This document shows positions 22,964-24,107 of a DNA stretch of 37,514 nucleotides, piece after piece. Origin of the DNA: a virus; IMG/VR virus record IMGVR_UViG_3300024895_000004, positions 1 to 37,514 of that record. The stretch is one strand, 5' to 3'. The position numbers and the translations under genes were made by a program. The notes under the pieces are model-generated. The model saw only the letters and a list, made by a program, of their open reading frames with translations, did no database searches and was not told where the DNA came from. Every line of letters begins with the position of its first letter. Position 1 is the first letter of the stretch.

Positions 22964-23323
22964 ATGTGCGACTCAAATACAGTTGAATATGATTGCTGGT
23001 CAGAAAATGGTGAAAATTATTTCAAAGATTTTTGTACCGTAATAGATCAACTTGAAGTTGGCGACACCCTTTACGAGGGGGTAAGCATTACACCAAAAGT
23101 AATCAACTGGATTGATGCTGACAGAGTAATAGAAGATATTCAGTGCAGCGCATGCGATGAATGTGGAGAATATGCGGAAGATTTTCTAAATGCCATATCT
23201 AACGAAGCTAAGACTGAATTAAAGAACATCATTACTGCATGGGTTGAAAAGTACGACAGGCCAACATTCTACCTAGTAGAACAAGTGAGCGAAAGATTGG
23301 TAAATGAAGATGACAAAGCCTAA
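22964..23323 (+). CDS. Acidic hypothetical protein, 119 aa
   Basis: It starts at ATG 22964 behind AAAGGAACG. The product is strongly acidic, with a Cys-rich patch (IQCSACDECGEYAEDF) that could bind metal and a helical C-terminus (ELKNIITAWVEKYDRPTFYL). It lies between target 3 and the Avd-like gene, so it may belong to the DGR operon or be an unrelated early gene. Not recognised. Confidence 0.6.
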   Translation: MCDSNTVEYDCWSENGENYFKDFCTVIDQLEVGDTLYEGVSITPKVINWIDADRVIEDIQCSACDECGEYAEDFLNAISNEAKTELKNIITAWVEKYDRPTFYLVEQVSERLVNEDDKA

Positions 23324-24107
23324 CATGCCAAAAATATCAGGCATCGAAGTCACCTTCACCGCCACTGATCCACACGTTGAGATCAGCGAAAAACTGCAAG
23401 CCCAATACCCGCATCACATGATATTGGTGCAATCAGGAACCTGGCTGCATGCTTTCAACAAATCCGCCTACGCACTACACACGTTAAAGCAATACAAAAT
23501 CAGGCTTGCCGGCCCAGCTAACAAGCCTCACTTGTTGGTTGGTTTTCCAGTCGCCAATTACAAGCAACGCTTATGGCCAATCATGGATGAACACAATATT
23601 TCCTATGTTGTGGTCAATCAAACCGACATCGATGTATGCGAAGCGTCAGCGCCAAGCTACGCATTGGATGCAATCTCGGATGACATCGTGAACCAGGTGA
23701 TTGCGGATCTGATCACCAGCAAGCAGCTGAAAACATCCACCACGGCAAAAGCACTGGCCAATCCGAACACGCAGGATTTCATCTTTAAAACCAAAGCCGG
23801 CGATCTGGATTCAATGCTGCTGCAGGACATCATCAAACTGCCGCGTGACATCCGTGTTACATGGGGAGAAAACGTACGCCAGACCATGCAGCGCATCATG
23901 CGCAACACCTATCTGTACGGCAATGAAGATAACAAACCGCAGCTGCTGAAACAGCTATCCGCTGACGTGGATATGATCCGCCACTATATATGCCAGGCAC
24001 AAGCACTAAACCTATTCAAGATTGCATTCGATCATCGAGTGGGTTTAGTGGTCGAGCTTGGTCGCATCCTGGGCGGCTTGCAACGCGCACAAAGGACAAC
24101 ATCATGA
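23304..24107 (+). CDS. avd: DGR accessory protein: MutS-like domain fused to Avd-like four-helix bundle, 267 aa
   Basis: Residues about 25-110 resemble MutS domain I. They have an ISEKLQAQYPHHMILVQSGT strand-helix start, an FNKSAYALHT helix, then LLVGFPVANYKQRLWPIM and a VVVNQT strand end. Residues about 165-262 look like the DGR Avd bundle: alternating helices ending GLVVELGRILGGLQRAQR, close to the Avd C-terminal ExGRxLGGW pattern. Avd binds the RT and template RNA and is needed for cDNA synthesis. MutS-like (MSL) proteins are known as separate DGR accessories. Start may be 23304, 23310 or 23325. The stop overlaps the methylase ATG, and the template starts 25 bp later. Confidence 0.75.
   Translation: MKMTKPNMPKISGIEVTFTATDPHVEISEKLQAQYPHHMILVQSGTWLHAFNKSAYALHTLKQYKIRLAGPANKPHLLVGFPVANYKQRLWPIMDEHNISYVVVNQTDIDVCEASAPSYALDAISDDIVNQVIADLITSKQLKTSTTAKALANPNTQDFIFKTKAGDLDSMLLQDIIKLPRDIRVTWGENVRQTMQRIMRNTYLYGNEDNKPQLLKQLSADVDMIRHYICQAQALNLFKIAFDHRVGLVVELGRILGGLQRAQRTTS

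Follow-up and report, generated by a model that had tools for sequence, protein, structure and literature searches.

The DGR cassette of the viral contig

We have analyzed the 37,514-base IMG/VR virus record IMGVR_UViG_3300024895_000004 over its whole length (the window from here on). It contains the cassette of a diversity-generating retroelement (DGR), with three variable repeats (VRs), one template repeat (TR) and a reverse transcriptase (RT), together with an integrase at 26373-27563. The features are:

18293-18412, + strand: first variable repeat, 3'-terminal in target gene 17709-18422
19073-19192, + strand: second variable repeat, 3'-terminal in target gene 18483-19202
22773-22892, + strand: third variable repeat, 3'-terminal in the FGE/C-type-lectin-like target gene 21964-22902
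23304-24107, + strand: MutS_I-Avd (MSL-Avd) fusion gene, recognised from its ORF, family searches, fold matches and the conservation of the fused ORF
23352-23654, + strand: MutS domain I-like head of the fusion, residues about 17-117 (fold match, hhalign to MSL, motif counts)
23655-23768, + strand: linker, residues about 118-155 (AlphaFold2 helix at 126-152, low confidence at 142-154)
23769-24104, + strand: Avd four-helix bundle, residues about 156-267 (NCBIfam, Pfam, PHROG, fold match)
24132-24251, + strand: TR, matching the three VRs
24104-25231, + strand: open frame that runs through the TR and spacer into a D12-class N6-adenine methyltransferase (domain at 24395-25228)
25228-26214, + strand: DGR-type RT (IGNLSSQ and YVDD motifs; Pfam RVT_1 2.5e-23; PHROG 1423 5e-99)

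When the single TR was compared with the three VRs, 56 of the 67 mismatches were located at TR adenines, a concentration that is the signature of an adenine-specific DGR. The three VRs have diverged, suggesting past diversification activity. The third target gene matched the PHROG sulfatase-modifying factor enzyme (3e-39), and the methyltransferase matched Pfam MethyltransfD12 (1.3e-22), its stop codon overlapping the start ATG of the RT. The IGNLSSQ motif of the RT has the (I/V/L)GxxxSQ form typical of DGRs and the protein groups with other SQ-motif RTs; its structure prediction without alignment was uninformative (pLDDT 42). Among cellular genomes a single relative was found, in Methylotenera oryzisoli (88% identity), which makes a Methylophilaceae-like host likely.

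A MutS-like head and an Avd bundle in one ORF

The fusion gene codes for 267 amino acids, with some uncertainty about its start codon (ATG at 23304, 23310 or 23325). The initial annotation had seen in it an N-terminal part resembling MutS domain I and a C-terminal part resembling Avd. Both structure prediction and profile comparisons agree with this division: in the AlphaFold2 model (mean pLDDT 77, pTM 0.46) the head (residues 17-117) has the fold of MutS domain I and the bundle (residues 155-267) that of Avd, neither half being unrelated, while by profile the head leads to stand-alone MSL and the other half to the Avd models.

The Avd half matched NCBIfam NF033474 (Avd) over residues 164-260 with an E of 6e-8 and Pfam bAvd (PF22296) with 1.5e-5, in both cases with scores under the curated cut-offs, and PHROG 3206 ("Avd protein of DGR") with 5.6e-6. 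The bAvd model was also matched by all of the 43 aligned members of the fusion family. The predicted bundle was similar to BPP-1 Avd (4dwl_E, Z 15.0, 107 residues, 1.8 A) and to the Avd of the DGR RNP (8ub8_C, Z 15.2), values to be read with caution because helical bundles easily reach high Z and a few unrelated ones came close behind the Avd/S23 family. This family tops the list of fold matches and the sequence matches concur. Judging from sequence and model together, the C-terminal half is an Avd domain, as had been annotated. The BPP-1 protein (4dwl; 8ub7 and 8ub8 for the RNP) is likewise a four-helix bundle encoded just upstream of the TR and RT, but it has no N-terminal head and the bundle of the window is only 15-22% identical to it. 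The motif ELGRILGGL, described before as the end of the protein, is indeed present at residues 251-259, but eight more residues (QRAQRTTS) follow.

The MutS domain I character of the N-terminal half is barely visible in the window protein's own sequence and becomes clear through its relatives, a bridging MSL and the predicted model. The head matched Pfam MutS_I collinearly (residues 29-107 to model positions 8-86) with an E of 0.1, or 0.038 when the N-terminus was scanned alone, and the 13.3 bits of the window protein against PF01624 are under the cut-off of 20.6. Among the fusion family, 25 of the 43 members matched MutS_I, the best at 4e-4. Direct comparison of the head profile with proteobacterial MutS gave a probability of 7-24% (scores of 21.6-23.4, while shuffled controls peaked at 16.6 and 17.3), a weak match that is made good by a stand-alone MSL protein. 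The fusion-head profile aligned to this MSL at 96% in hhalign (E 4.8e-9, a single comparison) and the MSL, in turn, reached 54 bits to Pfam MutS_I and matched E. coli MutS directly (E 1.6e-6). The best Foldseek PDB matches of the head model were MutS proteins, with modest E-values (best 1.7e-3), and its VIA Z was 12.7 against MSH3 (3thz_B, 93 residues, 2.1 A), with a Z of 12.1 against Taq MutS (1ewq_B). The Pfam matches of the relatives, the MSL bridge and a fold similarity with Z about 12 bear out the likeness proposed for the N-terminus. A sequence search of the PDB with the fusion protein and the family profile found neither MutS nor Avd. MutS_I and Avd were the only domains found in the 267 residues, MutS domains II-V (connector, core, clamp and ATPase) being absent, and the net charge of the head is near neutral (-1 in the window, family median +3).

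Conservation of the fused form and its split counterparts

Searching IMG/VR with the whole protein retrieved 54 loci, and the head alone retrieved 74. Nearly all the head matches share one ORF with Avd and are followed by a DGR RT where the contig extends far enough; apart from contigs that are truncated, the one exception was an odd locus, L140, where the ORF with a partial head match (4896-5714) overlaps, in a different frame, a weak match to RT. A fused ORF found in dozens of contigs is neither a product of chance nor a sequencing join. The search for the same fusion in relatives was thus positive, in these contigs and in one Methylotenera genome, while INPHARED phages and PLSDB plasmids gave no match. 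The fusion ORF was the sole Avd detected in the fusion cassettes, where no separate Avd was found. In a tree built from 45 RTs of fusion loci and 18 RTs of other DGRs, all the fusion RTs formed one group with 100/100 support, which is consistent with a single origin of the fusion, on a long branch. The pairwise dN/dS values of the head were mostly between 0.02 and 0.14 (one pair of low divergence gave 0.47) and comparable to those of Avd, so that, by this measure, both halves are under purifying selection.

Some loci carried variants of the gene. In L127 the fusion gene is present twice in tandem (4929-5783 and 5999-6853), upstream of a single RT. L008 (273-1076) and L011 (6001-6780) share an altered C-terminus, in which the GGLQRAQ after ELGRILG or ELGKILG is replaced by LAKLC or LVKLC. 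L008 has only an RT fragment downstream and no TR leader after the fusion, which suggests that this locus is decaying.

The initial annotation had linked both halves to the DGR accessory genes MSL and Avd, and asked whether split versions exist. They were present in two genomes of the same phylum (L203 and L204), with MSL, Avd, TR and RT as separate elements in that order, the MSL and Avd genes of L203 being only 17 nt apart. Together with the bridging MSL and the Avd matches, these split neighbours confirm the link. The mismatches between TR and VR in these cassettes were again at adenines (17 of 19 in L203 and 22 of 25 in L204). The fused and split forms are a classic Rosetta-stone pair; such a natural fusion, matched by split homologues in an unchanged order, speaks for MSL and Avd working within one complex. 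Most of the other DGRs sampled in the class had a stand-alone Avd and no MSL, indicating that the head is not generally required. In scans of viral contigs we saw no split MSL; five of the weak MutS_I matches in phage records were inspected and all were on larger proteins (ORFs of 442-898 aa), in whose vicinity neither RT nor Avd was detected.

MSL (MutS-like, Pfam PF01624) and Avd are known accessory proteins of DGRs (PMC10053308). Here the two are fused in one protein. The survey cited there for MSL is presumably that of Wu et al. 2018; among open papers other than this main survey, we found none describing an MSL-Avd fusion. Like the known MSL, the fusion brings a MutS domain I into a DGR cassette, and the position of this domain ahead of Avd, TR and RT is that of MSL in the split cassettes of L203 and L204. 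The fusion differs in that MSL is otherwise a separate gene beside avd, while the window and its relatives have a single ORF, and in that the head sequence of the window has drifted under the Pfam cut-off.

The region downstream of the fusion gene had a conserved arrangement as well. The fusion stop codon overlaps an ATG (ATGA) in 58 of 59 loci, the frame starting at 24104 in the window. Over the first 300 nt of the 59 loci this frame had 0 stops, compared to 153 and 103 in the other two. It spans the TR and the spacer and is continuous with the RT reading frame in 49 of the 59 (e.g., L013, 3363-4670), while most of the loci without an in-frame RT have a cargo gene in the slot and an RT with its own start. 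Variation by codon position in the spacer was nearly flat, indicating that the frame is kept open and that its residues are not clearly selected. With a frame that runs on into the RT, ribosomes may translate the template RNA before they reach the RT. A TR overlapping one end of the RT ORF is on earlier record (PMC3521204, group 3). The cargo slot, between the TR spacer and the RT, is at 24395-25231 in the window and was also found in L002, L005, L027, L093 and L097. The genes found in frame behind the TR leader were the D12 methyltransferase of the window and, in relatives, an N6/N4 methyltransferase, a PAPS-reductase-like gene, a Dam-like gene and a protein with an H-NS tail.

The mismatch motif and the possible role of the head

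In an ungapped stretch of the alignment between head and MutS, W47-L-H49 of the window aligns with Phe36-X-Glu38, the mismatch-recognition motif of MutS. Across the fusion family (n = 43) the first position was F in 38 and W in 5, the second L or M, and the third H in 40, Q in 2 and R in 1, so that none of the 43 has Phe-X-Glu and all read F/W-L/M-H/Q/R. Stand-alone MSLs had F-M-H, F-M-Q or F-M-R; in both groups the aromatic wedge is retained and the glutamate lost. The G-F/W-L-H hairpin is nearly invariant in the family and is located at the spot where MutS touches DNA. With MutS domain I (of MutS, MSH3 and others) the head has in common the fold and the G-aromatic hairpin with the Phe36 position, but it has His in the place of Glu38, no domains II-V and Avd attached to it. 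MutS enzymes with the motif residues changed to Ala are unable to recognise mismatches (PMC12292046), and a role of the motif glutamate in authorising repair is reported in the title of Lebbink 2006. Since the glutamate is lost, with His replacing it in 40 of 43, domains II-V are absent and the Ala mutants fail to recognise mismatches (PMC12292046), true mismatch sensing is doubtful, and the mismatch recognition attributed to the head by the initial annotation is not supported. From the residues retained, it is possible that the head binds bent or distorted duplex without signalling repair.

Sequence, predicted structure and comparative genomics establish the two domains, their fusion and its conservation, the adenine-specific TR/VR pairs and the fusion ORF as the sole Avd detected in these cassettes. 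The protein is best explained as a DGR Avd cofactor with an MSL domain at its N-terminus, in a cassette whose sequence has the hallmarks of a functional DGR; to a role of this domain as a duplex-binding head in retrohoming we give an even chance. BPP-1 Avd is needed for DGR activity and the bRT-Avd complex acts on structured spacer RNA (PMC12875486). By analogy, the Avd bundle would assemble in several copies with the RT and the TR RNA, and this would put the MutS_I heads beside the new cDNA. Through the retained aromatic wedge the heads could grip a distorted duplex, presumably the cDNA:VR heteroduplex and less likely the RNA:cDNA hybrid, and in this way help to position or protect the cDNA. 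No MutL-dependent repair call would be expected, because domains II-V are absent and His takes the place of the mismatch glutamate. The near-neutral charge, which is not that of a strong nucleic-acid binder, would go against a duplex-binding head, and the modest Foldseek E-values for MutS and the lack of MSL in most DGRs of the class also count against this reading. Of the earlier proposal that one polypeptide ties mismatch recognition to the RT complex, the tie is a reasonable consequence of the Avd half, but the mismatch recognition is not supported by the motif.

The same domains could serve other ends. The head might act before integration, bound to the RNA of TR and spacer or to the RNA:cDNA hybrid, where it would aid RT priming, processivity or template choice. 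Its attachment to Avd, the partner of the RT on structured spacer RNA (PMC12875486), would fit, but DGRs with only Avd manage without a head and MutS domain I contacts DNA in its known relatives, making this unlikely. We give somewhat less credit to the idea that the head recognises cDNA:VR mismatches and keeps host MutS off them, preserving the mutations. The homology to MutS_I and the retained wedge speak for it, and a related host encodes an ordinary MutS, so competition is possible in principle; but the motif glutamate is lost in 43 of 43, Ala changes abolish mismatch recognition in MutS (PMC12292046), and mutS was without effect in a repair assay with the reconstituted BPP-1 system, although the 18-nt insertion used there is not a MutS substrate (PMC12875486). 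The same improbable standing applies to a built-in anti-mismatch-repair device, in which host MutS would be excluded by several MutS_I heads, brought together through the Avd oligomer and bound to the mismatch-rich cDNA:target heteroduplex. If this were true, phage DGRs would have built a mismatch-sensing domain permanently into their retrohoming complex.

A head that has lost nucleic-acid binding and recruits a host or phage factor as a protein-protein module would agree with the near-neutral charge and the missing glutamate, but hardly with a nearly invariant hairpin at the position of the DNA contact in MutS, and seems to us rather improbable. That the N-terminal extension is a functionless addition, by chance or in decay, is barely conceivable: the MutS_I match of the window protein alone is at noise level, but dozens of contigs have the fused ORF, the structure of the extension matches and the MSL bridge connects it to MutS. 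Conservation and the purifying selection seen in the dN/dS of the head contradict a chance extension.

The retrohoming reading bears on the transfer of cDNA to the target, a poorly understood step of DGRs; the precise mechanism by which mutagenised cDNA enters the target is still in question (PMC12875486). Here a phage DGR has one protein that joins the recognition domain of MutS to the essential helper of the RT, and selection has maintained the joined form across dozens of relatives among phages. The HRDC accessory proteins of Treponema denticola DGRs (PMC4891356) are similar in being a DNA-metabolism domain used as DGR accessory by the RT, but the domain is another one and its gene is separate, overlapping that of the RT. 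Stand-alone MSL genes were also found in other settings. In one genome (L236) such a gene (2437-2748) lies amid housekeeping-type genes, and neither Avd nor RT was detected within the 8.5 kb examined there; in L235, a contig of 4.5 kb, another (2036-2362) is located between two FGE/lectin-like genes of the target type.
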